Shown in pieces: positions 93-12,323 of a stretch of 39,690 bases of DNA. Below the pieces are notes generated by a model. It ran no database searches, was not told the DNA's origin, and saw only the letters and a program-made list of their open reading frames with translations. The stretch spans positions 1 through 39,690 of the forward strand of contig SVMM01000023.1 in assembly GCA_015067435.1 (NCBI GenBank), in the 5' to 3' direction. This DNA is from Oscillospiraceae bacterium (GTDB lineage Bacteria > Bacillota > Clostridia > Oscillospirales > Oscillospiraceae). The translations under genes and the position numbers were made by a program. Position 1 is the stretch's first letter; each line of letters starts with the position of its first letter.

Positions 93-2078
93 CTAAGCTG
101 TTTTGGCCTGCGGCTTCTGGAAGACGAACTTCTGCGCCAGAATGATGACCGCGAGGCACACAATGCCCGCAAGGTCGGTCACAAGGCCGCTGTCGATCAG
201 CAGGAGCGCGCCCGCGCCCGCGACGATGCGCAGCACGACGTTCAGCCGTCCGTAGAGGTAGCCCTCCACCGCCGCGGCGATCAGCACGACGCCGATGCAC
301 GCCGTGACGACGACCTGCAAGCCCGTGAGGAGCGTGACGTTTTCCAGCAGCAGCGCGGGGTTGTAGACGAACATGAACGGCACGATGAAGCCCGCAAGCG
401 CGAGGCGCACCGACTGCCAGCCCGTTTTCATCGGGCTGCCGCCCGAAAGCCCCGCCGCCGCGAAGGAGGCAAGCGCCACCGGCGGCGTAAGGTTCGCGAA
501 CATGGCGAAGTAGAAGCAGAACATGTGCGCCGCGATCTCCGGCTGTCCCAGCTCGACGAGCGCGGGCGCGGCGATGGTGGCGGTGATGAGGTACGACGGG
601 ATGGACGGAAGGCCCATGCCGAGGATCATGCACGTGACCATCGTGAAGAGCAGCGTGAGCATCAGGCTCTGCTCGCCGATGCTGATGATGGCGTGGGCAA
701 CGTTGAGTGCAAAACCTGTCATGCCGCAGACGCCGACGATGATGCCGACGCAGGCGCACGCCATCGCCACGGAGACCGTGGATCTCGCACCCGCGACGAA
801 CGCGTCACAGATGTCCTTGAAGCTCATGCGGCTGATGGGGCGCAGCTCCGCCACAACGATGGTGACGATGATCGTCCAGAACGCGCCGAGGATGACCGTC
901 GCGCCGCTGAAGATCAGCATGTAAAGCAGGAACACGATTGGGATCAGCAGGTGGCCGCGCGCCTTCATGACCTCCTTGACCTTGGGCATCTGATCCTTGG
1001 GCAGGCCGTTGAGGTTGTCCTTGGTCGCGCGCATCTGCACCTGAATGATGATGCCGAGGTAGTAGATCAGCGCGGGGATGACCGCCGCCTTGATGATGAC
1101 GGCGTATTTTACGCCGAGCGTCTCCGCCATGACGAAGGCGGCGGCGCCCATGATGGGCGGCAGCAGCTGCCCGCCGACGGAGGCGGTCGCCTCCACCGCG
1201 CCGGCAAACTCCTTGGAGTAGCCGGTCTTTTTCATCAGGGGGATGGTGAACGTGCCCGTGGTGACGACGTTCGCCACCGCCGAGCCGTTGATGGAGCCGA
1301 GGAAGCCGGAGGCGAGCACCGCGACCTTTGCGGGGCCGCCCTTCGTGTGTCCGGCGAGCGCGTTGGCGATGTCGTTGAAGAACTGGCCCATGCCGCACTT
1401 GTTCATGACCTCGCCGAAGATGATGAACAGCACGATGTACGTCGCCGCCACCTTGATCGACGTGCCGTAGATGCCGTACACGTCTGTGGTCAGGTAGGTG
1501 ACGATGCGGTGCCAGGTATAGCCGCGGTGCCGGAAGATGCCCGGAAACGAGCGCCCGTAGAGCGCGTAGAGAAGGAAGATGATGGACAGGATCGGCAGCG
1601 CCCAGCCGCTCAGGCGGCGCGAGCACTCCAGCACCAGCAAAATGAGGATCGTGCCGAAGATGATGTCGATCGTCTCGCCCTGAAAGCCCGTGGAGATGAA
1701 TGTCGGATAGCGCACGAAGACGTACACGGGCATGACCGCCGAGGCGGCGATGAACAGCCAGTCATACCACGCGATCTTCCTGCGGCTGGACTTCCTGAAC
1801 GCGGGATACAGGGCAAAGCCCAGCACGAGGATCAGGCCAACATGGATGGCGTGGTGCTTGATGTTGACCATTTGCAGCGCGCGGATACCCGATGCGTAAG
1901 CAAGGTGGTAGAGTGTGAACGCAAGGCAGAGAAAATAGACGATCTTTTTCAGCACTTCCGCGTCAAAGACACGCGTGCGGGATTCCTTCTCGAATTTCTC
2001 CATGATCTCCGCGCCCTTTTCCTCCGGCGCGGGCGTGTCCGCCGGTACGTCGGCGGCTTTTTTCTCAAGATCGGACAC
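93..2078 (-). CDS. TRAP transporter permease, fused 4TM/12TM subunits (TAXI type)
   Basis: Membrane permease of a tripartite ATP-independent periplasmic transporter, which uses an ion gradient to import a substrate delivered by a binding protein. The 661 residues are mostly hydrophobic: the N-terminal part matches the small DctQ-like subunit and the rest the large DctM-like subunit, the usual fusion in TAXI systems. Conserved membrane motifs are visible, including a GSINGSAVANV segment near residue 255, GGQLLPPIMGAAAF near 300 and GLPSIPSYL in the C-terminal third. The start is GTG at 2078 after AGGGGGAAT, overlapping the end of the DUF1850 gene by 14 bp. It is the last gene of the operon. 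Substrate is unknown; TAXI systems elsewhere carry dicarboxylates or glutamate-like compounds. Confidence 0.93.
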   Translation of the reverse strand: MSDLEKKAADVPADTPAPEEKGAEIMEKFEKESRTRVFDAEVLKKIVYFLCLAFTLYHLAYASGIRALQMVNIKHHAIHVGLILVLGFALYPAFRKSSRRKIAWYDWLFIAASAVMPVYVFVRYPTFISTGFQGETIDIIFGTILILLVLECSRRLSGWALPILSIIFLLYALYGRSFPGIFRHRGYTWHRIVTYLTTDVYGIYGTSIKVAATYIVLFIIFGEVMNKCGMGQFFNDIANALAGHTKGGPAKVAVLASGFLGSINGSAVANVVTTGTFTIPLMKKTGYSKEFAGAVEATASVGGQLLPPIMGAAAFVMAETLGVKYAVIIKAAVIPALIYYLGIIIQVQMRATKDNLNGLPKDQMPKVKEVMKARGHLLIPIVFLLYMLIFSGATVILGAFWTIIVTIVVAELRPISRMSFKDICDAFVAGARSTVSVAMACACVGIIVGVCGMTGFALNVAHAIISIGEQSLMLTLLFTMVTCMILGMGLPSIPSYLITATIAAPALVELGQPEIAAHMFCFYFAMFANLTPPVALASFAAAGLSGGSPMKTGWQSVRLALAGFIVPFMFVYNPALLLENVTLLTGLQVVVTACIGVVLIAAAVEGYLYGRLNVVLRIVAGAGALLLIDSGLVTDLAGIVCLAVIILAQKFVFQKPQAKTA

Positions 2079-2640
2079 CTGTGAGATTCCCCCTTACTGT
2101 AATGATTTCACCGCGAATCCTGCTGGCGTCTGGCAGGCTCCGGAAGTCGAAAACCTCTTCCCCGTTGAGGGAAAGCCCCTTCATATAGGTTGCGGACGTG
2201 ATCCACGAGAAGTACGGGAAAACGCTGTTGATATCCTCCATCCACACAAGCCCGTCCTCGACGCGCGTCGGCACGTCCATTTCCGCGGGAATGCCCGCGC
2301 CGTAGCCCGCCACGGCGATGGCGTCGAGGTTAAACTGCCCGTCCTCCCGAACGGTGTAGAACTCGTACCACGGGATATGCTCGAAGGAGTGCTCGATCTC
2401 CAGCCGGAGTTGATCTCCGGCGCGGACCGGCACGGAGAACACGACCGTCTCCCGCTCGCGGTCGTAGAGCCGGAACGCCCGGCCCGCGGGCGCGTAAAAC
2501 GCCCACCAGACAAAGCCCCCCAGCACGGCGAACGCCAGTGCGGCGCAGAGAACGCCGCGCAGCCTTTTGTCCATGTTTCCGAATACAATGCCGAGGCCGC
2601 GGGAAACGGCGTCGTCTCCCGCGGCGCTCACGCAGTCCAT
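2065..2640 (-). CDS. DUF1850 domain protein of TRAP-TAXI operon
   Basis: A 191-residue protein of the DUF1850 family, a group found almost only beside TAXI-type TRAP transporters. An N-terminal hydrophobic segment (about residues 30-48, LCAALAFAVLGGFVWWAF) should anchor it, with the remainder outside. The family pattern is visible: a segment with EIEHSFEHIPWYEFY, then GYGAGIPAEMDVP. The ATG at 2640 overlaps the TGA of the binding-protein gene (TGATG), which suggests translational coupling. An alternative start at 2574 (MDKRLRG) would leave a cleaner signal-anchor N-terminus. The molecular role of the family is not established; an accessory role in the transporter is inferred from context. Confidence 0.85.
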   Translation of the reverse strand: MDCVSAAGDDAVSRGLGIVFGNMDKRLRGVLCAALAFAVLGGFVWWAFYAPAGRAFRLYDRERETVVFSVPVRAGDQLRLEIEHSFEHIPWYEFYTVREDGQFNLDAIAVAGYGAGIPAEMDVPTRVEDGLVWMEDINSVFPYFSWITSATYMKGLSLNGEEVFDFRSLPDASRIRGEIITVRGNLTGVRS

Positions 2641-3710
2641 CAGTGGATGTAGCCGTTGTCAGCCCAGAACGCCTGCGCGCCCGGATGCAGCGGGAGCTGG
2701 ATGTCATCGACGCCGAAGGTGATGTCGATGTTCTTGTCCGCGGCGTTGTGGGACGCCTTGATGGTGGAGATGTTGGCGAAGATGCCCTCCAGCATATCGT
2801 AGACCATCGCGTCGCTCAAATCCTTGCGCACGAGCATGATGTTGTAGACGAAGACGCCCTCGACGTCCTCCGTGTTGTTGTAGGTATTGGCGGGGATGAC
2901 GCTCTTGGCGTAGTAGGGATACTCGCTGACGAGCTTGTCGCGGCCCGCGCCGTCGATGGGCACGACGACCATGTCGTACTGCACGCCCAGCTCCATGACC
3001 GTCGCGTTCGGAAGGCCGGAGGTGACGAACACCGCGTCGCACTGGCCGTTCTTCATGTTGTCGATCGCTTCGCCGTAGGCGAGATAGTCCGGCTGGATGT
3101 CGTCATAGGTGATGCCGTAGGCGGCGAGGATCATGCGCGCGTTGATCTCAACGCCCGAGTTCGCCGCGCCGACGCCCACGCGCTTGCCGCGCAGGTCCTC
3201 GACCTTCGTGATGCCGGTGTTCGCGGTGGTGACAAGCTGGACGTAGTTCGGCCACAGGCGCATCAGCGCGCACAGGTCGCTCGCGGGGTCCTTGCCCTCA
3301 TACGCGCCGGTGGCGGTGTACGCCTGCATGACGGCGTCCTGCATGGCAATGGCGATCTCGCAGTCGCCGTTGAGGATGTTCTGGATGTTCTGGCCGGTGG
3401 CGTTCGTCGCCTCCGCCGAGGTGGAGTAGCCGTACTCCTGAAGCGCGGTGGCAAACGCGCCGCCGATGGGATAATAGATGCCGGAGGTCGGGCCGGTGCC
3501 GACGGTGATAAACTCCTTGGCGCGCTCCGCGTCGGTCAGGCCCTTGCTCTCGCCGCCGGACGGCGCCGCGGGCGTGGCCGCCGCGGGAGCCGCGGGAGCC
3601 GCGGGTGCCGTGGGGGTCGCGGGCGCTGGGGTGGAACCGCCACCGCCGCCGCAGGCGGCGAGCGCGAGTACCATGCAGAACGCAAGCAGCAGTGCAGTCA
3701 GTTTTTTCAT
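2640..3710 (-). CDS. TAXI family TRAP transporter solute-binding lipoprotein
   Basis: Extracytoplasmic substrate-binding subunit of the TRAP transporter. The 356-residue product starts with a lipoprotein signal peptide (MKKLTALLLAFCMVLALAAC), followed by a Gly/Pro/Ala/Ser-rich linker to about residue 55. The mature domain opens with VGTGPTSGIYYPIGGAFA, typical of TAXI binding proteins, and continues with the KRVGVGAANSGVEINARMIL and EAIDNMKNGQCDAVF segments of the family. The ribosome site is GGGAG about 8 nt before the ATG. It is the first gene of a three-gene operon with the DUF1850 protein and the permease, and is preceded by a strong promoter and an unusual hairpin leader (3762-3808). Confidence 0.93.
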   Translation of the reverse strand: MKKLTALLLAFCMVLALAACGGGGGSTPAPATPTAPAAPAAPAAATPAAPSGGESKGLTDAERAKEFITVGTGPTSGIYYPIGGAFATALQEYGYSTSAEATNATGQNIQNILNGDCEIAIAMQDAVMQAYTATGAYEGKDPASDLCALMRLWPNYVQLVTTANTGITKVEDLRGKRVGVGAANSGVEINARMILAAYGITYDDIQPDYLAYGEAIDNMKNGQCDAVFVTSGLPNATVMELGVQYDMVVVPIDGAGRDKLVSEYPYYAKSVIPANTYNNTEDVEGVFVYNIMLVRKDLSDAMVYDMLEGIFANISTIKASHNAADKNIDITFGVDDIQLPLHPGAQAFWADNGYIH

Positions 3711-3761
3711 TTCAGTTTCTCCCTTCCAGTCGTTTTCACATGATTCCGAAATAAAACGACA

Positions 3762-3808
3762 AAGGCGCCCATCTGGGTATAGTAACCCAGATGAACGCCT
3801 TCGTTCAT
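3762..3808 (-). promoter_or_regulatory. Hairpin leader with two competing stems, upstream of TAXI operon
   Basis: On the minus-strand transcript, positions 3801-3785 pair with 3778-3762 to give a 17-bp stem with a 6-nt loop (TACTAT). Two pairs are G-U in the minus-strand RNA, and these would be A-C mismatches on the other strand, so the minus-strand RNA is the likely folded species. The first arm also pairs with the preceding bases: ATGAACG AAGG CGTTCAT (3808-3791) forms an exclusive small hairpin. A T-rich run (TTTGTCGTTTT) follows the long stem, so it may act as an attenuator. The predicted transcript begins within 1-3 nt of this element. Its first 17 nt nearly match the purA leader. Confidence 0.7.
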
Positions 3809-3815
3809 TGTGGTC

Positions 3816-3844
3816 AGTATAAACGCCGCGTTTTGATTTGTCAA
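3816..3844 (-). promoter_or_regulatory. Sigma-A type promoter of the TAXI operon
   Basis: On the minus strand TTGACA (3844-3839) and TATACT (3821-3816) are separated by 17 bp. The predicted transcription start is near 3809, leaving a leader of about 100 nt before the TAXI ATG at 3710. Confidence 0.85.
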
Positions 3845-3876
3845 TAGGGTTCTTTGCCGACGTGCGCGATTATTTC

Positions 3877-3905
3877 TTTTCAAACCGTTCGCGGTGTGCT
3901 ATAGT
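3877..3905 (+). promoter_or_regulatory. Possible promoter of the HD/nucleotidyltransferase operon
   Basis: TTTTCA (3877-3882) and TATAGT (3900-3905) lie 17 bp apart, 45 bp before the start codon of the large gene. The -35 box matches consensus at only four of six positions. It is divergent from the TAXI promoter, with about 32 bp between the two -35 boxes. Confidence 0.4.
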
Positions 3906-3949
3906 GATGGCATGATTTTTAACCGGCCAACCATTTCTGCGGGGTGCTT

Positions 3950-6900
3950 ATGAACAAAAAAGCTGCAAGGGAATTGATGGGCGCGCTCTCGCGCGCGCTG
4001 TGTGAACGCGGTCTCGCGCCGGACGAGCGCGCCGCGGCGGAGCTGCTGCGCAGGGCAGAGACGGCGGAGCGCCTCGGCGCGCTGTTTCCGCTGCGCGGAA
4101 GGCTCCGCTGCGACGCCGTCGCCGAGGCGTGCGCGCCGCTGCTCGGCGACGCGCCGGAGCGGGGCTGGTGCGCGTTCTGCTACGACTTCATCCGCACGCG
4201 GATGTACCCGCAGGGGCACTTCGCGCCGGACGCGGGCGGCTATGTGCGCGGGGCGCTGACCTTCCTCACGGTCCTGCAGGAGCTGCTCGCGCGCGAACGG
4301 CAGGCGCTGCCCTTCGACCCGATGGTCGACTTTGCCTTCCTCGCGCCGGAGGAGTACGACGCCTTTGACCGCGCGGAGGAGTACCGCCGCTTCCTAGCCT
4401 CGTGGCGGGACGGGTTCATCTACGAGCTGATGCGCCTCGGAGACGAGGTGACGCCGTACCGCACGCTCAGCCACATCGCGGGCGTGCACCATATCGCGCT
4501 GACGGTCGCGCGCGGCATTTTGAACGCGGGCGAGGAGATCGACCTCGCGCTCCTCTCCGCCGCCGCCGCGGCGCACGACCTTGGAAAATACGGCTGCCGT
4601 CCGGGCGAGGCGGTGCCGCACCTTCATTACTATTACACGGGCTACTGGCTGGAAAAGCGCGGATTGAACGCCGTCAGCCACATCGCCTCCAACCACTCGA
4701 CATGGGATCTGGAGCTCGACGCGCTCTCCGTCGAGTCGCTTTGCCTCATCTACGCGGACATGCGCTGCAAGCAGGGCCGCGACGCGCAGGGGCGGGAGAT
4801 CACGGCGGTCTACTCCCTCGCCGACGCCTTCGACGTCATCTTGCAAAAGCTCGAAAACGTCGACGCCGCCAAGCGCCGCCGCTACGAGCTGGTCTACAGC
4901 CGCCTGCAGGACTTCGAGCGCTATCTCCGCTCGCTCGGCGCGGATATTGAGCTGACCGGCGCCCCCTGTGTCGCCGCGCCGGTGAAGGACGCCGCGCTGA
5001 TGACGGCGGAGGAGGCGGTCGACCGGCTGCAAATGCTCTCGATGGAGCACCATCTGCGGCTGATGAACCAGCTCTCCAGCGAGCAGAAGCTCGGCAACAT
5101 CATCGAGGCGGCGCGTGCCAGCCGCGACTGGAAGCAGCTGCGCGTCTACCTCAACATCTTTGAGGAATACTGCACCTATCTCTCGGCGCGGCAGAAAACG
5201 CAGGCGCTCGCGTTCCTCTACGAGCTGTTGAGCCACCGCGAGGGCGACATCCGTCGTCAGGCGGCGAGCCTGATCGGGCAGATCATCGCGCGCTTCCACC
5301 TCGTCTACCGCAAGCGCCTGCCCGACGACGCGCCCTCCGACCCCGCGGAGGAGGTTCCCTTTACGCTGTGGGAGGAGTATCTGGACAGGATCATCCGCCC
5401 CGACCACAAGACCACCGCGCAGCAGCGCTCGCACATCGGTTACACGCTCAAGATCGTCGTGGACGCGATGCTGCAATGCGGCCGGAGCGAAACGCTGCCG
5501 CGCTTTGTCGGCGCGTTGCTGCGGTATTACGAAGCGCCGGAGACGCTGGACGCGGACACGGCGTTCACACTGCTCGACGCGATCCAGAACCTGCCGCCGC
5601 GCTATTACGACGAGCAGACGCGCGGACAGCTCATCGAATTCGCCGGCTACTTTGTTCAAAACGGCGACACGCGGCTCCAGACCGCCGCGCTGCTGTTTCT
5701 GCGCGAGACGCAGCGCCCGCTGGCGCGGGAGCACGCGCAGATGCGCCGTATTGCCAAGCTTGCCCGCGGCGGCGCGGACGACGCGCTGACGCTGCAATTT
5801 CTCCGCTACCGCATCCTCAGCCGCGCGGGCGAGGACGTGTCCGCTTATCGCGAGATCTTCGACGGCGCGCGGGACATCACGGGCGAGATCTTTCTCGACA
5901 ATCTCAAGACGGCGACGCCGTGGGTCAACAAGGTCGTCGGCGTGGAGATCCTGCGCGATCAGGCGGGACGCAGCCGCACGGACAACATCCTGCACATCTG
6001 CACCCATTTTTCCAACCTCATCAAGGTTTCCGAGCGCGTCGTCGTGCGACACGCCGCGGGCGCGGCGCTGCTGGACGTGCTGCCGCTGCTGCGGCGCGAG
6101 CAGCGCAACGAGGTCGTGGTCGAGCTGGGCAAGGGCATCGAGCTGGGGCAGTACGCCATCTCGAAATACATCCCGGACTATCTGGGGCGCGCGGCGCTGC
6201 TGCTCTTCCCCAGCGAGCTGGACGAGCAGGTGCTCTGGCTCAAGCAGCTGCTCGGCTCCCCGACGGACAGCGCCGTCGCCGGCGCGCTGCGCACGATCGG
6301 CGTCATGCTCCAGCACTACGGCGCATACCGCGGCCGCTTTGTCGAGCCCTCCGCGCGCTACACGGAGCGTCTGCACGAGCTGATCGGCCTGCTGCTGCAG
6401 GGTCTCGCCCACTACCGCGAGCCGGTGCGGCAGGAGGCGCTGCTGATCTTCGCGCAGCTCTTCGACGGCGGCGCGCTGGGCAGAGCGGAGCGCGAACGGC
6501 TGTTCACGCTCTGCTGCCGCAAGCTGCTCTTCCTCATCGACGCCGCGCCGGATCACGACGCTCTGACGTTCTTCTACCGCGCCTCGGCGCTGCTGCACAT
6601 CGACCGTTTCCTCACGCTGCACCGTCTGGAGCACGGCGCGTTCCGCTTCGAGCGGCCGCGCAAGGTCGCGTTCTTCCCCGGCACCTTCGACCCCTTCACG
6701 CTCTCCCACAAGGGCATCGTGCGCGAGATCCGCGAGATGGGATTCGAGGTCTACCTCGCCGTCGACGAGTTCTCGTGGTCGAAGAAACCGCAGCCGCATC
6801 TGCTGCGCCGCCAGATCATCAACATGTCGGTGGCGGGCGACTTCCACGTATACCTGTTCCCGACCGACATCCCCGTGAACATCGCCAACCCCGGCGACCT

Positions 6901-8680
6901 CAAACGCCTGCGGGAGATTTTCGAGGGGCGGCGGCTGTACCTCGTGGCGGGCGCGGACGTCATCGCGGGCGCCTCGGCGTACAAAAAGGAGCCGGAGCCG
7001 TACTCCGTGCACTCGCTCGACCACATCATCTTCAGCCGCCCCGACCAGCCGCGCCTGCCGCCGCGCGAGCGGCTACGCCTGAGCGGCGACGTGATGGAGC
7101 TGCGCCTTCCGCCGGAGCTGGAGGACATCAGCTCCACGCGCATCCGCGAGAACGTGGACCACAACCGCGACATCTCGCATTTCATCGACCCGATCATTCA
7201 GGATTTCATCTACCAGAACGGCCTGTACCTGCGCGACAGTCAGGATAAGCCCCTGCTCACGCCCTCCGACCTTGCGTTCGACTGGCTCGCGCCGCCCTAC
7301 GGCGGCATGGGGCATCCCGCGCTCGCCGAGGCGGCGCGGGATGGCGACGAGCTGCTGGCGCTGCGGCGCGGGGAGAAACGCGCGGGCTTTGTGACGTGGC
7401 GCTGTCTCGGCGCGACGGAGCTGTTCGCGGCGCTTGGCGACGCGGCGCTTTCCGACCGCGTGCGCCTGCGCGCCGGCGGCAAGACCCTGCTCGTCACCGG
7501 CGTCTACGCTTCGGGCGACGACGCGCAGCTGCTCCTCAGCGAGGTGCTGGCGCGCTCGCTGCAGGAGGACTGCGTCTACGCGCTCTGCCGTCCGCGCCAC
7601 GGCGTGACGCCGGAGCTGGAGGAGCTGCTGGCGCGGCAGGGCTTCGTCCGCCGCGAGGGCGGCGCGGCGCTGATGGAGGTCGACATGCGCGCGCCGACGG
7701 TGCTCATCCGCAATCTGGAAACGACCATTCAGGAGCCGCTCGCCCGCGACAGGCGCGTGCTCGCCGCCATTGAAAACGGGCATCAGCGCTTGCAGCACGC
7801 GCTGACGGGGCTGTACCCCGGCTCGCTGGTGCTGACGCTCTCGTCCGACGTGATCCACCAGCGGCTTTTAGAGCGCATTACGGCGTTCAACCACGTGCCC
7901 GACACGCCCACGGAGCCGCGGGCGCTCGGCGAGTGCATGTGCGTGCCCTTCGGCAAGCTGCTGCGCGGGCGCATCCTGCCCAACACCGTCACCAAGACCA
8001 TCCACACCGACAAGGTGTTCGAGCCGGATCTCCGCTCCAGCCGCGTCGAGGCGTTCCCCTACTACGCACCCATCCCCTGTCAGGTACGCACGATCCGCTC
8101 CTTCGCCCGCCCCGTCATTCTGGTGGACGACGTGATGCATCCGGGCACGCGCATCCGCGCGCTCGACCCGCTGCTGCGGCAGGAGGACGTCGACATCTGC
8201 ATGGTGCTCGTCGGACTGCTCTCCGGCCACGGGCGCGACCTGATGCGCGAGCGGAACCGTCCGGTGGACGGCGCATACTTCGTGCCGACGCTGCGGCAGT
8301 GGTTCGTGGAGTCGACGCTCTACCCCTTCATCGGCGGCAACACCGTCCGACGCGCGAGCGCGCCGGTGCCGGGGCTGCTGCCCGGTGTGAACCACATCCT
8401 GCCCTACGCCGCGCCGCCCTATCAGGGCGAGTGTCCGGACTGGGCGGTGTTCGCGCTCTCGCGCTGCTGCATCGAGTCCGCGCGCGACCTGATGCTGGCG
8501 CTGGAGGCGGCGTACCGCGAGCAGTACGCGCGCAACCTGACGCTCAGCCGCCTCAGCGAGGCTGTCATTCTGCCGCTGTGCCCCGACAAGGGCGCGTGCC
8601 TGCACTACGACCCCAGCCTCGCCGCGTCGGTGTATCTGGAAAACGACCTCGAACAACTCATGAGGAGCGCGGGCCTATGA
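3950..8680 (+). CDS. Large multidomain protein: HD domain, helical repeats, NadD-like nucleotidyltransferase, phosphoribosyltransferase-like C-terminus
   Basis: A 1576-residue cytoplasmic protein without membrane segments. Residues about 175-270 hold an HD-type metal phosphohydrolase motif set (HHIALTVARG, then AAHDLGKYG near 208, then HIASNHSTW). Residues about 370-890 are helix-rich and HEAT/ARM-like. From about 905 comes a clear nucleotidyltransferase (FFPGTFDPFTLSHKGI, and ISSTRIRENV near 1059), closest in pattern to NadD or cytidylyltransferases. The C-terminal 450 residues include an acetyltransferase-like stretch and, near 1388, VILVDDVMHPGTR, which resembles the PRPP loop of phosphoribosyltransferases. 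The ATG at 3950 follows GGGGTG; an in-frame GTG lies two codons upstream. Its stop overlaps the next ATG (ATGA). A nucleotide or NAD-cofactor role is inferred; the true reaction is unknown. Confidence 0.85.
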   Translation: MNKKAARELMGALSRALCERGLAPDERAAAELLRRAETAERLGALFPLRGRLRCDAVAEACAPLLGDAPERGWCAFCYDFIRTRMYPQGHFAPDAGGYVRGALTFLTVLQELLARERQALPFDPMVDFAFLAPEEYDAFDRAEEYRRFLASWRDGFIYELMRLGDEVTPYRTLSHIAGVHHIALTVARGILNAGEEIDLALLSAAAAAHDLGKYGCRPGEAVPHLHYYYTGYWLEKRGLNAVSHIASNHSTWDLELDALSVESLCLIYADMRCKQGRDAQGREITAVYSLADAFDVILQKLENVDAAKRRRYELVYSRLQDFERYLRSLGADIELTGAPCVAAPVKDAALMTAEEAVDRLQMLSMEHHLRLMNQLSSEQKLGNIIEAARASRDWKQLRVYLNIFEEYCTYLSARQKTQALAFLYELLSHREGDIRRQAASLIGQIIARFHLVYRKRLPDDAPSDPAEEVPFTLWEEYLDRIIRPDHKTTAQQRSHIGYTLKIVVDAMLQCGRSETLPRFVGALLRYYEAPETLDADTAFTLLDAIQNLPPRYYDEQTRGQLIEFAGYFVQNGDTRLQTAALLFLRETQRPLAREHAQMRRIAKLARGGADDALTLQFLRYRILSRAGEDVSAYREIFDGARDITGEIFLDNLKTATPWVNKVVGVEILRDQAGRSRTDNILHICTHFSNLIKVSERVVVRHAAGAALLDVLPLLRREQRNEVVVELGKGIELGQYAISKYIPDYLGRAALLLFPSELDEQVLWLKQLLGSPTDSAVAGALRTIGVMLQHYGAYRGRFVEPSARYTERLHELIGLLLQGLAHYREPVRQEALLIFAQLFDGGALGRAERERLFTLCCRKLLFLIDAAPDHDALTFFYRASALLHIDRFLTLHRLEHGAFRFERPRKVAFFPGTFDPFTLSHKGIVREIREMGFEVYLAVDEFSWSKKPQPHLLRRQIINMSVAGDFHVYLFPTDIPVNIANPGDLKRLREIFEGRRLYLVAGADVIAGASAYKKEPEPYSVHSLDHIIFSRPDQPRLPPRERLRLSGDVMELRLPPELEDISSTRIRENVDHNRDISHFIDPIIQDFIYQNGLYLRDSQDKPLLTPSDLAFDWLAPPYGGMGHPALAEAARDGDELLALRRGEKRAGFVTWRCLGATELFAALGDAALSDRVRLRAGGKTLLVTGVYASGDDAQLLLSEVLARSLQEDCVYALCRPRHGVTPELEELLARQGFVRREGGAALMEVDMRAPTVLIRNLETTIQEPLARDRRVLAAIENGHQRLQHALTGLYPGSLVLTLSSDVIHQRLLERITAFNHVPDTPTEPRALGECMCVPFGKLLRGRILPNTVTKTIHTDKVFEPDLRSSRVEAFPYYAPIPCQVRTIRSFARPVILVDDVMHPGTRIRALDPLLRQEDVDICMVLVGLLSGHGRDLMRERNRPVDGAYFVPTLRQWFVESTLYPFIGGNTVRRASAPVPGLLPGVNHILPYAAPPYQGECPDWAVFALSRCCIESARDLMLALEAAYREQYARNLTLSRLSEAVILPLCPDKGACLHYDPSLAASVYLENDLEQLMRSAGL

Positions 8681-9849
8681 ACGACTGTATCGAGAAAAAC
8701 GGCAATCTCTACTATTTTGTGGACGGTGATCCCGTACTGGGACGCGGGAGTTTCCGCGCAAACTGCGCGGGACAGCTCGCCGCGCCGCACGGGCTTTCGG
8801 TGCTGGACGCCTCGCGCCTGCCGGACGTTCCGCTGGACAATGCGCTGCGAAGCGCGCTGGACGCGGGCAGGCTCACCGTCGTCAACCGCAGCCGTCCCGG
8901 CTGGGAGCGGATGCTGGAAGCGCCCAAAACGGGCAAAAAGCGCGTCAATCTGCTCGCTCTCGGCGACGTGGGCGGGACGCTGCTGACGGGGCTCAAGCTC
9001 CTCGGCGGCGACGTGATCTCGTCCATCGGCGTCTGCGATCTTTCGGAGCAGGCGGTCGCGCGCTGGACGTTCGAGATGGGGCAGGTATCGCTCCCGTGGG
9101 ACTACGGCGCGTTCCCGGAGGTGGAGCCGGTGGACGCGGAGCACCTGTTCGACTGCGACGTGCTGGTATTCGTCGCCTCGAAGGGCATCCCGCCGGTCGG
9201 CTCCGGCGTCAAGGACGTGCGCATGGCGCAGTTCGAGAGCAACGCCGCCATCGTGCGCCACTACGCGCGCATGGCGCGCGGGAAGGCGTTCCGCGGCCTC
9301 TGGGCGGCGGTGTCCGACCCCGTCGACCCGCTGGCGAAGGTCGCGTATCTGGAAAGCAACAAGGATGAGAACGGCGTCTGGGACGGCATGGGGCTCCTGC
9401 CCGAGCAGGTGCAGGGCTTCGGTCTCGGCGTGATGAACGCCCGCGCCGCGTACTACGCCAAGCGGGATAATCGCTTCGCCTCGTTCCTGACCGAGGGGCG
9501 CTCCTTCGGCCCCCACGGCAAGGGGCTCTGCATCGCCAACTCGATCGGGCATTACGACGACGCGCTCTCCCGCGAGCTGACGGAGCTGGCCGTCACGGCG
9601 AACCTCAAAATGCGGGAGCTGGGCTTCAAGCCCTACGTCGCGCCGGCGCTCTCGTCGGGCGCGCTGAGCCTGCTGCTGACGCTGCGCGGCGCGTGGCACT
9701 GCGGCTCGGTCTATCTGGACGGCGTGTACATGGGCTGCAAAAACCGTCTCACCCCCGCGGGCATCGAAACCGAGCTGCTTGACCACATCCCCGACGCGCT
9801 GTATGCGCGCATAGAGGACGCGGCGGCGGAGCTGAGGGGGATCGTGTGA
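8677..9849 (+). CDS. Lactate/malate dehydrogenase-like (Rossmann) protein, uncharacterised
   Basis: A 390-residue protein whose central part reads like the lactate/malate dehydrogenase superfamily. A dinucleotide-binding start (NLLALGDVGGTLLTG, about residues 90-104) is followed by DVLVFVASKGIPPVG with downstream R-M-A-Q-F-E-S-N-A, matching the active-site loop region of that fold. Next comes VSDPVDPLA (about 212), in place of the usual NPVD, and FGPHGKG (about 277), in place of GEHG. The first 80 residues are not recognised. The ATG at 8677 overlaps the stop of the preceding gene, and its own stop overlaps the next start (TGATG), so three proteins appear to be made in step. A hydroxyacid/oxoacid oxidoreductase activity is possible, but key residues differ, so substrate and activity are open. 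Confidence 0.75.
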   Translation: MNDCIEKNGNLYYFVDGDPVLGRGSFRANCAGQLAAPHGLSVLDASRLPDVPLDNALRSALDAGRLTVVNRSRPGWERMLEAPKTGKKRVNLLALGDVGGTLLTGLKLLGGDVISSIGVCDLSEQAVARWTFEMGQVSLPWDYGAFPEVEPVDAEHLFDCDVLVFVASKGIPPVGSGVKDVRMAQFESNAAIVRHYARMARGKAFRGLWAAVSDPVDPLAKVAYLESNKDENGVWDGMGLLPEQVQGFGLGVMNARAAYYAKRDNRFASFLTEGRSFGPHGKGLCIANSIGHYDDALSRELTELAVTANLKMRELGFKPYVAPALSSGALSLLLTLRGAWHCGSVYLDGVYMGCKNRLTPAGIETELLDHIPDALYARIEDAAAELRGIV

Positions 9850-10940
9850 TGGAGTTGACTGTGATCCGCCTTCCCGCCGACGACGCGTCGGACGATAAGC
9901 GGCTGGACGGCGTGCTGCAAAGCGCGCTGGATGGCGTCGCGCACGCGACGGTCACGGACGTGTCCGCGCTGCCCGATCTGCGCGGGAGGCGCCTGCTGTT
10001 CGCCATGGCGCTCGGCGCGTACGGCGTCAACACGGCGTATCTGCGTCTGCTCGCGCGTCTGCGCGCGGCGCCGGATACGCTCGACGGCTGCGTCTCGGCG
10101 CTCATCGTCGACGGGGGCGGCGAGCTGTACACCAAGTCGGCGGCGGCGGAGCTGGCGCTCGCGCTCAACAGCGCCGGCAGCGCGCTGCCGGGGCGTCCGC
10201 TGGTGGAGGCGACCGGCTCGCTGCAAAACTTCCGCGTGCAGGCGAAGAATCTGGGCACCGACCTCATGGGCGCGTACCGCGCGGCGGTGCGGGAGCTCGC
10301 CGAACGGCTGGCGAGTGAAGCGTTTCCCCTGCGGGAGAAGCCTGCGCTGCTGGCGCTCCACGCGTCGAGCTATCACGTCTCGAACACGATGCAGCTCTGG
10401 GCGCAGGTCAAGGTGCGCCTCAAAAAAAGCTGCACGGTGGAGGAAATCGGGCTGCGCAACGGCGCGGTGTCCGACTGCTCCGGCTGCCCCTATACCGCAT
10501 GCCTGCACTTCGGCGAGAAGGGGCGCTGCTTCTACGGCGGGCTGATGCAGGACGAGGTCTGGCCCGCGGTGCGCCGCTGCGACGCGGTGGTGCTGCTGTG
10601 CCCGAACTACAACGACGCGCTGTCCGCGAATCTGACGGCGTTCATCAACCGCATGACCGGCCTGTTCCGCCAGACGCGGTTTTACGACAAGGCGGTGTTC
10701 GCCATCGTCGTGTCCGGCTACTCCGGCGGCGACATCGTCGCGCGGCAGGTGCTCGACGCGATGAACATGAACAAGTCGTTCTACCTCCCGCCGCGCTTCG
10801 CGCTCATCGAGACGGCGAACGACCCCGGCGAGGCGCTGATGCTGTCGGGCGTCAACGCGCGGCTGGACGCCTTTGCGGCAAGGATGCGGAAGTCGCTCTG
10901 CGCGCCCGCCGCGGCGGAAAACATCGCCGGAGGCTATTGA
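9849..10940 (+). CDS. Flavodoxin-fold NAD(P)H-dependent oxidoreductase with cysteine cluster
   Basis: A 363-residue protein. The N-terminal half (to about 160) is unrecognised. The C-terminal half matches FMN-dependent reductases of the flavodoxin fold: LLALHASSYHVSNTMQLW, then VVLLCPNYNDALSANLTAFINRMTGL, then FAIVVSGYSGGD. Between them lies a four-cysteine segment (CSGCPYTAC near residue 207, plus a cysteine nine residues on), as in reductases that also bind an iron-sulfur cluster. The start is taken as ATG 9849 because it overlaps the upstream stop as TGATG; a GTG one codon earlier is possible. It is the last gene of the coupled three-gene set, and the -35 box of the purA promoter overlaps its stop codon. 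Electron transfer to a partner enzyme of the module is plausible but inferred. Confidence 0.8.
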   Translation: MELTVIRLPADDASDDKRLDGVLQSALDGVAHATVTDVSALPDLRGRRLLFAMALGAYGVNTAYLRLLARLRAAPDTLDGCVSALIVDGGGELYTKSAAAELALALNSAGSALPGRPLVEATGSLQNFRVQAKNLGTDLMGAYRAAVRELAERLASEAFPLREKPALLALHASSYHVSNTMQLWAQVKVRLKKSCTVEEIGLRNGAVSDCSGCPYTACLHFGEKGRCFYGGLMQDEVWPAVRRCDAVVLLCPNYNDALSANLTAFINRMTGLFRQTRFYDKAVFAIVVSGYSGGDIVARQVLDAMNMNKSFYLPPRFALIETANDPGEALMLSGVNARLDAFAARMRKSLCAPAAAENIAGGY

Positions 10941-10965
10941 CAAGCGCGGCGTCCTGTAGTATGTT
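10937..10965 (+). promoter_or_regulatory. Promoter of purA
   Basis: TTGACA at 10937-10942, a 17-bp spacer and TATGTT at 10960-10965. The -35 box overlaps the stop codon of the upstream flavodoxin-like gene. The predicted start is near 10972, immediately before the leader hairpin. Confidence 0.65.
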
Positions 10966-10973
10966 TACCGTGT

Positions 10974-11028
10974 TGAACAAAGACGTTCATTCAGGGGGCA
11001 AGTGCCCTCAATGAGCGTCTTTTCTTTT
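10974..11028 (+). promoter_or_regulatory. purA: Terminator-like leader hairpin before purA, with competing 5' hairpin
   Basis: Positions 10979-10991 pair with 11010-11022 in a 13-bp stem (one G-U pair in the plus-strand RNA), topped by a GGGC AAGT GCCC hairpin and followed by TTTTCTTTT. This is a typical intrinsic terminator placed 20-25 bp before the purA start. The 5' arm can instead pair upstream: TGAAC (10974-10978) with GTTCA (10985-10989) around the hexaloop AAAGAC. Because the predicted transcript starts near 10972, the element cannot serve only as terminator for that transcript; attenuation of purA is inferred. It may also stop read-through from the upstream operon. Confidence 0.75.
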
Positions 11029-11048: not shown

Positions 11049-12323
11049 ATGGCAAACTGTGCGATCGTGGGCATCAACTGGGGCGACGAGGGCAAGGGCC
11101 GCATGGTCGACCTGCTGACCGAGCGGTACGACTACGTCGTCCGCTATCAGGGCGGCGGCAACGCCGGACACACCGTCGTCAACGAGCGCGGCAAGTTCGC
11201 GCTGCATCTGCTGCCGTCCGGCGTGTTCCGCGACGGCGTCGTCAACGTGCTCGGCAGCGACGTCGCGCTCGATCTCGAAAACCTGTGGTCGGAGATCGAA
11301 ACGCTGCGCACGTCGGGCGTGCACGTCACGCCCAAAAATCTGAAGATCAGCAGCCGCGCGTCGCTGCTCCTGCCGTGGCACCGGGAGCTGGACGCGCTGG
11401 AGGAAGCGCGGCTCGGCGACAAAAAATTCGGCTCGACCCGTCAGGGGATCGCGCCGTTCTACTCGGACAAATATCAGAAGAAAACGCTGCTCGCGGGCGA
11501 GCTGCTGTACCCTGACCGCCTGCGCGCGCACGCGGAGGAGCTGCTGGGGTGGAAAAACCTGACGCTGACCGGCGTCTACGGCACGAAGCCCTGCACGCTG
11601 CGCTCGCTGCTGGACTGGCTGGACGAGTACGGCGGCAAGCTCATGCCCTATATCTGCGACACCGCCGCGGAGCTTGGGCGCGCGCAGGAGAGCGGCAAGA
11701 GCATCCTCTTTGAGGCGCAGCTCGGCGCGCTGCGCGACCTCGACTGCGGCATCTATCCGTACACGACCTCCTCCCACGCGCTCGCCGCCTACGCGCCGGT
11801 CGGCTCCGGCGCGCCGTGGCTGAAAGTGGACGAGGTGCTCGGTGTCGTCAAGGCGTACTCCACCTGCGTCGGCGAGGGGCCGTTCACCTGCGAGCTGTTC
11901 GGGCCGGAGGCGGACGCCCTGCGCGAGGCGGGCGCGGAGTACGGCGCCAAAACGGGCCGTCCCCGCCGCGTCGGGCCGATCGACCTCGTCGCAACACGCT
12001 ACGGCGTGCGGATGCAGGGTGCTACTTCGCTGGCGCTGACGAAGCTGGACGTGCTGAGCTATCTGGACAGGATCCCGCTTTGCGTACAATACGAGCTGGA
12101 CGGCAAGCGCACGGACGAGTTCCCCTTCCCCGCCGCGCTGGACAAGGCTGCGCCGGTGATCGAGTACATGGACGGCTGGCACTGCGACATCTCCGGCGCG
12201 CGGAGCTGGGATGCGCTGCCGGAGGCGGCGAGGGCGTACGTGGAGCGCATCGAGCGCGCCGTCGGCTGCCCGTTCTCCTACGTCTCCGTCGGCGCGGAGC
12301 GCGACTCTTACATCAGGAGGTAA
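11049..12323 (+). CDS. purA: Adenylosuccinate synthase
   Basis: Catalyses GTP-dependent joining of IMP and aspartate to adenylosuccinate, the first committed step from IMP to AMP, in the cytoplasm. The 424-residue length is normal for the family. The N-terminus shows the GTP-binding signature INWGDEGKGRMVD with the catalytic Asp, followed by YQGGGNAGHTVV with the catalytic His. The nucleotide-recognition segment TGRPRRVGPIDLVATRYG appears in the C-terminal third. The start ATG follows AAAGGGG. purB begins 5 bp after the stop, so the two form an operon for IMP to AMP conversion. A promoter and terminator-like leader directly upstream suggest attenuation control. Confidence 0.97.
   Translation: MANCAIVGINWGDEGKGRMVDLLTERYDYVVRYQGGGNAGHTVVNERGKFALHLLPSGVFRDGVVNVLGSDVALDLENLWSEIETLRTSGVHVTPKNLKISSRASLLLPWHRELDALEEARLGDKKFGSTRQGIAPFYSDKYQKKTLLAGELLYPDRLRAHAEELLGWKNLTLTGVYGTKPCTLRSLLDWLDEYGGKLMPYICDTAAELGRAQESGKSILFEAQLGALRDLDCGIYPYTTSSHALAAYAPVGSGAPWLKVDEVLGVVKAYSTCVGEGPFTCELFGPEADALREAGAEYGAKTGRPRRVGPIDLVATRYGVRMQGATSLALTKLDVLSYLDRIPLCVQYELDGKRTDEFPFPAALDKAAPVIEYMDGWHCDISGARSWDALPEAARAYVERIERAVGCPFSYVSVGAERDSYIRR

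Follow-up and report, generated by a model that had tools for sequence, protein, structure and literature searches.

The window analysed here, a 39,690-nt stretch of DNA from an Oscillospiraceae bacterium (assembly GCA_015067435.1, contig SVMM01000023.1), carries a TAXI-type transporter operon on the minus strand and the gene purA on the plus strand, each headed by a short leader with the same element (Table 1). The two 17-mers on which the original prediction was based, TGAACGAAGGCGTTCAT at 3807-3791 (minus) and TGAACAAAGACGTTCAT at 10974-10990 (plus), were re-read and agreed at 15 of 17 bases, with both mismatches being transitions, as had been claimed; a search of the whole window allowing up to two mismatches gave 2 matches against 0.01 expected, and none of 100 shuffles contained two. 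A TTGACA promoter with a 17-bp spacer lay just ahead of each element, again as predicted, and in both leaders TGAAC started 8 nt past the -10 box (TATACT and TATGTT, respectively). Both leaders contained a UGAAC-(6-nt loop)-GUUCA hairpin whose loop and 3' half form the 5' arm of a terminator. These leaders belong to a real and widespread attenuator family at the 5' end of nitrogen-assimilation mRNAs in Clostridia, and the compact switches or attenuators first proposed from the pair are supported by relatives, promoters, covarying helices, and a coherent gene set.

The terminator folds were strong in both cases, at -37.5 kcal/mol for TAXI (z -9.05) and -26.8 kcal/mol for purA (z -6.48), with none of 200 shuffles equally stable for either leader, and each was followed by the T-rich run that had been described. 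The claim of a long hairpin with the element as its 5' arm therefore stood, except that the TAXI stem exceeds the 17 bp given for it, its minimum-energy fold having 24 pairs. The proposed alternative small hairpin also formed in both leaders; folded alone, it reached -7.0 kcal/mol (z -4.74) in TAXI and -4.0 kcal/mol (z -1.67) in purA, and the purA hairpin was unremarkable in stability because 18 of 200 shuffles were equally stable. In the computed folds, a G1-C6 pair closes the TAXI loop (GAAGGC) into a tetraloop, and the purA loop (AAAGAC) remains an open hexaloop. The purA terminator cap at 10994-11007 carries CAAGTGCCC, as do same-genus pyrG leaders (L056 near 5727, L026, L027, L029, and L030); the caps differ from this type at other targets and also at some other purA leaders. 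Rfam gave no matches at or above the gathering score in the window and none up to an E-value of 1 in five member loci, and the three matches around purA were all far below the cut-off.

A search of the bacterium's own genome for the palindrome with one mismatch yielded four sites with a promoter and a terminator, namely, those of TAXI and purA, C19:10046, and C23:17799; the remaining matches, which were the majority, were set aside, no promoter and terminator being seen there. A fifth site, ahead of pyrG, was found by reading around the gene for an ANTAR protein. A covariance model (R1) was then available from 22 leaders, with the promoter excluded; its seeds had been selected for a promoter, a stem of at least 4 pairs, and a terminator fold (24 leaders minus a near-duplicate and a long one). 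At E-values up to 1, R1 gave 10 matches in this genome, corresponding to seven sites and three antisense images, and the seven targets were purA, two TAXI-type binding proteins, pyrG, type III glutamine synthetase (GSIII), a GltD-like oxidoreductase, and DapH.

Outside this genome, R1 matched 110 of 295 genomes of the order (E-values up to 0.01), and a second covariance model built from 79 elements (R2) matched 60 of 291 genomes of the class (E-values up to 0.001), in 48 of 181 genera; some of the loci behind these counts were read, and the remainder rest on E-values. An earlier pattern search of relatives had returned many matches at places without a visible promoter. For R1, 30 loci were read for promoters (the best matches and the DapH site of the own genome), one of which (L098) lacked the core at the expected place and was left unscored. 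A promoter score of at least 10 of 12 at the right distance was obtained at 26 of the 29 scorable sites and at 1 of 1,160 control places in the same loci; without the seed places L077 and L078, seeds having been chosen with a promoter, the count was 24 of 27. The expectation that model matches would fall immediately after promoters was thus confirmed.

Named genomes were scanned with a pattern of the -35 box plus the core, in which TTGACA and GARCAAAGGYGTTC were fixed and the -10 box was free. At least 118 stretches were found, and 80 loci with 81 sites were examined; a -10 box with at least 4 of 6 bases was present at 78 of the 81 sites, and the spacer was 17 bp at 63. The other three (L168, L183, and L209, with 2, 2, and 3 of 6 bases, respectively) look like chance matches because of their poor -10 boxes, and they were dropped from the counts over 78 sites and kept in those over 81 sites and 77 proteins. 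Most record titles named the class Clostridia or its members (Oscillospiraceae, Ruminococcus, Lachnospiraceae, Blautia, Roseburia, Defluviitalea, Peptococcaceae, Christensenellaceae, Massiliimalia, and Marasmitruncus), and a few named other groups (Erysipelotrichales, Treponema, Allomuricauda, and Omnitrophica). Cultured carriers of the element include Defluviitalea phaphyphila (L146) and Massiliimalia timonensis (L203). In a Treponema-labelled metagenome-assembled genome, the element stood before carA (L199:2822-2896) with a strong terminator (E 3.7e-7) and a weaker promoter, reflecting either transfer or a mis-binned contig. Two tandem elements per leader were seen in L141 (2258-2399, ahead of glutamine synthetase) and L190 (minus 193-127 and 68-7), implying double attenuation in some genomes. 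The sites of the named scan also bear on leader-peptide attenuation, in which ATG AAC AAA GGC GTT CAT would be read as a short peptide. An ATG does precede the core in the TAXI leader, but 26 of 78 sites lack the T needed for any NTG start, stem pairing accounts for that T, and the predicted starts leave no space for a ribosome site, so that this explanation is hardly credible.

The named scan led to 77 downstream proteins, three of them from the chance-like sites; L144, L185, L187, and L207 gave no downstream open reading frame by the rule applied. By Pfam, 34 of the 77 were class-II glutamine amidotransferases, mostly of the type heading a split glutamate synthase (GOGAT) operon, 16 were glutamine synthetases (glnA), and 8 were class-I amidotransferases, comprising 5 CTP synthases (pyrG) and 3 carbamoyl-phosphate synthases (carA). 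Single cases included adenylosuccinate synthetase, adenylosuccinate lyase (purB), AsnA, an alanine symporter, a SIS domain protein, a carbon-nitrogen hydrolase, DUF1015, an ATP-grasp protein, and others. Targets outside this set included Amt, PurC, and a peptidase C26/GATase protein, and genes for glutamate dehydrogenase, a second Amt, GSIII, and PucR-like proteins (L304, L299, L301, L302, and L298) were named from their first residues only. The targets are thus mostly glutamine or nitrogen genes and form the coherent set, dominated by glutamine amidotransferases and glutamine synthetase, that a genuine family had been expected to show. A link to nitrogen or purine status had been suggested; the gene set agrees with the nitrogen part, and the centre of the regulon lies with glutamine rather than purine.

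Covariation was examined in the alignment A2, which, like a further alignment (A3), was fitted to the R1 terminator structure and which includes some antisense images of the same hairpins. In 104 distinct A2 rows, 94.8% of the cells in the terminator helix were paired (83.3% in shuffles), and 12 of its 16 pairs had changes on both sides. For the antiterminator helix, whose pairing is not part of the R1 model, 94.0% of the cells in these rows were paired (87.3% in shuffles), with 24 cells changed on both sides against 5.3 in shuffles; such changes fell in 3 of 5 pairs, a count that 147 of 500 shuffles reached. Shifting the partner by one column reduced pairing to 53-54% for the terminator and 27-41% for the antiterminator. 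In the named set, stem pair 5, the first one that the pattern did not constrain, was paired at 0.705 (0.551 in shuffles, with 0 of 2,000 reaching the observed value), and stem pair 7 also exceeded shuffles (12 of 2,000 reached it); no excess pairing was found at stem pairs 6 and 8. Two mutually exclusive helices therefore both covary, as anticipated for the stems of a true family. These data also bear on a DNA operator, with TGAAC-N6-GTTCA at +1 as the palindromic binding site of a repressor dimer. In its favour are the palindromic form of the element and its place at the predicted start site, but at 31 of 81 sites the sequence is GAGC..GTTC, so that the RNA can still form a G-U pair whereas the DNA palindrome is lost (the pattern allowed GARC and fixed GTTC); furthermore, the loop is asymmetric and conserved, and the terminator arm covaries with the element. 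We regard an operator as highly improbable.

The loops of 79 elements, about half of which came from a pattern fixing AAAGGY, were AAAGGC (61), AAAGGT (10), GAAGGC (4), AATGGC (2), AAAGAT (1), and AAGGAT (1). Position 4 was G in all 79, and position 1 was A in 75 and G in 4; G1 loops occurred in the TAXI leader and in the glutamine synthetase leaders L023, L038, and L094. The loop-closing pair was C-G in 96 of 96 scorable A2 rows and the next was A-U (77) or G-U (19) in all 96, these positions being partly fixed by the search patterns. Targets of ANTAR proteins follow a loop rule of a hexaloop with A1 and G4 (PMC3369931), to which the purA loop conforms. The family resembles the dual-hairpin ANTAR leaders of eut, nasF, and amiE (Ramesh et al. 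2012, PMC3369931) in its A1/G4 hexaloop, its closing A-C/G-U pairs, a hairpin that overlaps an intrinsic terminator, and nitrogen targets that include glutamate synthase; it differs in having one hairpin, at the extreme 5' end, with a loop that is mostly AAAGGC, and in having purA, pyrG, carA, and other amidotransferases among its targets. The hairpin excludes the overlapping terminator, as in published ANTAR targets, and consists of a short stem that carries a single hexaloop with G4, the minimal motif of Walshe et al. 2022 (PMC8934654).

Two ANTAR proteins are encoded in the own genome, and one of them, of 193 aa, is encoded between glutamine synthetase and pyrG. The second (L002, G000 contig 22, about 287868) is a true response regulator, the end of whose gene is overlapped by a gene for a PdtaS-type histidine kinase. 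ANTAR proteins were present in 168 of the 295 order genomes, namely, in 93 of 110 with the element and 75 of 185 without it (Fisher p 3.6e-14), and in 145 of the 291 class genomes, namely, in 56 of 60 with and 89 of 231 without (p 1.2e-15), both tests being uncorrected for shared ancestry; in the class sample minus the own order, the counts were 50 of 54 and 84 of 225. Linkage gave the stronger signal and was counted in 150 listed rows of each search (element and ANTAR). Among the matches listed, 71 genomes had both, and in 45 of these the element lay at most 15 kb upstream of ANTAR on the same strand; the 56 pairs within 15 kb comprised 45 upstream on the same strand, 3 downstream on the same strand, and 8 on opposite strands. 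The gene order was element, GATase, GOGAT, Fer4, Pyr_redox, GXGXG, glutamine synthetase, ANTAR in L176 and element, glutamine synthetase, ANTAR in L213, and in 23 of the 32 loci that could be parsed (of 35 drawn from the best-scoring ANTAR matches) the gene immediately upstream of ANTAR encoded glutamine synthetase. A similar cluster in C. thermocellum, Clo1313_2030 to 2036, contains an ANTAR gene that changes in step (PMC4676874); the likeness to this NitR system extends to the position of the ANTAR gene in a GATase-GOGAT cluster by glutamine synthetase and to the antiterminator role suggested there, like that of nitR. The parts of that paper considered here describe neither an RNA target nor a regulon.

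Attenuation by another RNA-binding protein, with ANTAR linked merely through a shared nitrogen role, would accommodate the 21 genomes that have the element and no Pfam ANTAR match. A second search of these genomes with an ANTAR alignment recovered one cut-short orthologue (G321), and the other 20 gave no match or matches missing the ANTAR domain. Nevertheless, 13 of the 17 exceptions in the order were weak element matches (E-values above 0.0005), ANTAR proteins recognise this type of loop, and their genes are often in the operon, which makes such a protein quite unlikely. A small-molecule riboswitch, in which the hairpin itself would bind a metabolite such as glutamine, would fit the alternative structures and the metabolic regulon. 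It is very unlikely, since what is conserved is a 5'-terminal hairpin of 16 nt whose flanks just upstream and downstream are not strongly conserved, and since the loop type, the ANTAR linkage, and the lack of an Rfam match speak against it.

The structure model of the ANTAR protein (predicted local distance difference test score of 91) resembles Rv1626, EutV (TM 0.77, RNA-bound form), and AmiR, and the EutV RNA contacts K149, E160, and M172 (taken from PMC8934654) align with residues constant in 10 of 10 linked proteins. At the phosphate-accepting Asp of the receiver-like domain, 10 aligned proteins, read by eye, had Asn (7), Gln (1), Ser (1), and Asp (1). A receiver-like domain without this Asp makes it probable that the protein is controlled by a partner; moreover, partner proteins govern AmiR (in the AmiC complex) and NasT (NasS-NasT), so a protein partner is likely for the linked ANTAR proteins, whose frequent neighbour is glutamine synthetase. 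In Bacillus, glutamine synthetase is the glutamine sensor for GlnR and TnrA.

The number of hairpins is the principal departure from the known mechanism. From the predicted starts of 78 leaders, the 5' extension ahead of the stem had a median of 4 nt (0 to 9 nt for the central 90%), which leaves no room for a P1-like hairpin, and in 0 of 78 was a first hairpin with an A1/G4 hexaloop found in the stretch from the predicted start to the element. A second A1/G4 hexaloop anywhere else in the leader was present in 9 of 78 (5.2 expected from shuffles), and there is therefore no consistent second site. The terminator 3' arm started a median of 22 nt (5 to 71 nt) after the hairpin, which is complete soon after initiation. 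As a further test, 27 more ANTAR regions, from other families, were selected on their ANTAR score; the 12 without an upstream glutamine synthetase were left unscored, and 11 of the 15 scored had one hexaloop over a terminator-like stem, with no first-hairpin candidate found in those 11 leaders. The remaining four failed the detector, three for want of a fitting hexaloop and L286 for having two. In controls, 25 of 450 shuffled leaders passed the detector, as did 1 of 15 reverse strands; the detector fixes A1 and G4, so it is uninformative on their conservation. Given the 11 of 15 distant leaders, it appears that Clostridia commonly have the single-hexaloop form in their glutamine synthetase-ANTAR modules. 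The two A1/G4 hexaloops of the L286 glutamine synthetase leader are 33 nt apart (terminator overlap judged by eye) and would be useful for tracing change between two- and one-hairpin targets. They and the fit to the loop rule are what would recommend a dual-hairpin target of the published type whose first hairpin was missed, for example, because the true start lies upstream of the predicted promoter; set against the missing first hairpins, the short 5' extension, and the distant leaders, this is unlikely.

Short units with a promoter, a hexaloop hairpin, and a terminator were also seen in L294, L295, and L296 (G592, G518, and G558, from one family of the class; core at 127-133 on the strand of the element). 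No convincing same-strand gene follows in these three loci, and the longer open reading frames run from the other side; they are possibly short orphan RNAs that could act as an ANTAR sponge. The noncoding EutX/Rli55 sponge RNA carries ANTAR hexaloops (PMC8934654), and the likeness of these units to it is one of resemblance only.

Table 1. Leaders and genes of the TAXI and purA transcription units in the window
Feature	Position	Strand	Basis
TAXI operon promoter, TTGACA (3844-3839), 17 bp, TATACT (3821-3816)	3816..3844	-	Read from sequence
TAXI antiterminator hairpin (predicted), TGAAC(GAAGGC)GTTCA, single hexaloop, G1 and G4	3792..3807	-	Fold; same helix covaries in A2
TAXI terminator hairpin; 5' arm is antiterminator loop and 3' half	3755..3809	-	Fold
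T-rich run ending TAXI terminator stem	3750..3763	-	Sequence
TAXI-type substrate-binding protein (Pfam NMT1_3), first gene after element	2640..3710	-	Pfam
DUF1850 protein, TAXI operon	2065..2640	-	
DctM-family TRAP permease, TAXI operon	93..2078	-	
purA promoter, TTGACA (10937-10942), 17 bp, TATGTT (10960-10965)	10937..10965	+	Read from sequence
purA antiterminator hairpin (predicted), TGAAC(AAAGAC)GTTCA, single hexaloop, A1 and G4	10974..10989	+	Fold
purA terminator hairpin, overlaps antiterminator	10979..11022	+	Fold
T-rich run ending purA terminator stem	11020..11028	+	Sequence
purA, adenylosuccinate synthetase	11049..12323	+	

We favour, with a probability of about 0.8, single-hexaloop ANTAR antitermination of a nitrogen/glutamine regulon in Clostridia, in which the ANTAR binding, the antitermination, the glutamine synthetase link, the signal, and the polarity are deduced from the genomic evidence. 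By default, transcription of the leader would stop at the terminator. The small hairpin with its six-base loop would form from the first bases of the transcript, and because this hairpin contains the terminator 5' arm, the two structures cannot coexist. The 193-aa ANTAR protein would bind the single hexaloop and stabilise the small hairpin, allowing the polymerase to read through. Its partner would most likely be the adjacent glutamine synthetase, reporting glutamine, and the regulon would cover ammonia and glutamine assimilation together with glutamine-consuming synthesis; induction in nitrogen limitation is the usual expectation for the polarity. The likely ANTAR partner, the glutamine-centred regulon, and the departure by one hairpin go beyond what was first proposed for these leaders.

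Several observations weigh against single-hexaloop antitermination by this protein. In the eut system, deletion of P1 abolishes induction and both hairpins are required for antitermination (PMC3369931, PMC8934654), whereas one is present here. Position 1 of the TAXI loop is G and fails the A1 rule, and for the antiterminator two of five covariation measures were not clearly above shuffles (147 and 84 of 500 reached them). The EutV contact Y164 is His in these proteins, as in AmiR, and most of the 10 have Ile where EutV has R142. The co-occurrence tests carry no correction for shared ancestry, and of the genomes with the element, 17 of 110 in the order and 4 of 60 in the class had no Pfam ANTAR match; as G116 and G534 among these have good element matches, assembly gaps or real exceptions remain. 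Finally, purA, pyrG, and carA consume nitrogen or glutamine, so plain nitrogen-scavenging logic fails for some targets.

The family is apparently a tiny RNA switch that has been undescribed so far: no description was recognised in the open literature and Rfam searched, subscription papers being mostly outside that scope, and the available parts of PMC2965389 and PMC8040213 do not describe it. Walshe et al. (PMC8934654) proposed that P1 recruits the ANTAR dimer, which then moves to P2, and their redefinition of the minimal binding motif as one hexaloop foresaw single-hexaloop sites; in contrast to the present family, which would use one hexaloop, they conclude that the dimer must contact two to act against termination. 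A broader picture of Clostridia-wide nitrogen control, in which a receiver-dead ANTAR protein would be held by glutamine synthetase at high glutamine and would act on a single 5'-terminal hexaloop at glt, gln, amt, pyr, and pur genes with no recruitment hairpin, and with orphan sponge RNAs in some lineages, is tentative and somewhat doubtful as a whole.

With this family, many Clostridial genomes offer natural single-hexaloop candidates, and the likely cognate protein is often encoded in the same operon, so that the reason why a recruitment hairpin is needed in eut but perhaps not elsewhere becomes directly testable; purA and TAXI provide two test leaders within one window. A nitrogen regulator and its targets are thereby proposed for many gut and rumen Clostridia. 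If the broader picture of Clostridia-wide control is correct, one hexaloop would suffice for antitermination, and control in these bacteria would lie at the RNA level, in place of the DNA-binding nitrogen regulators found in others.

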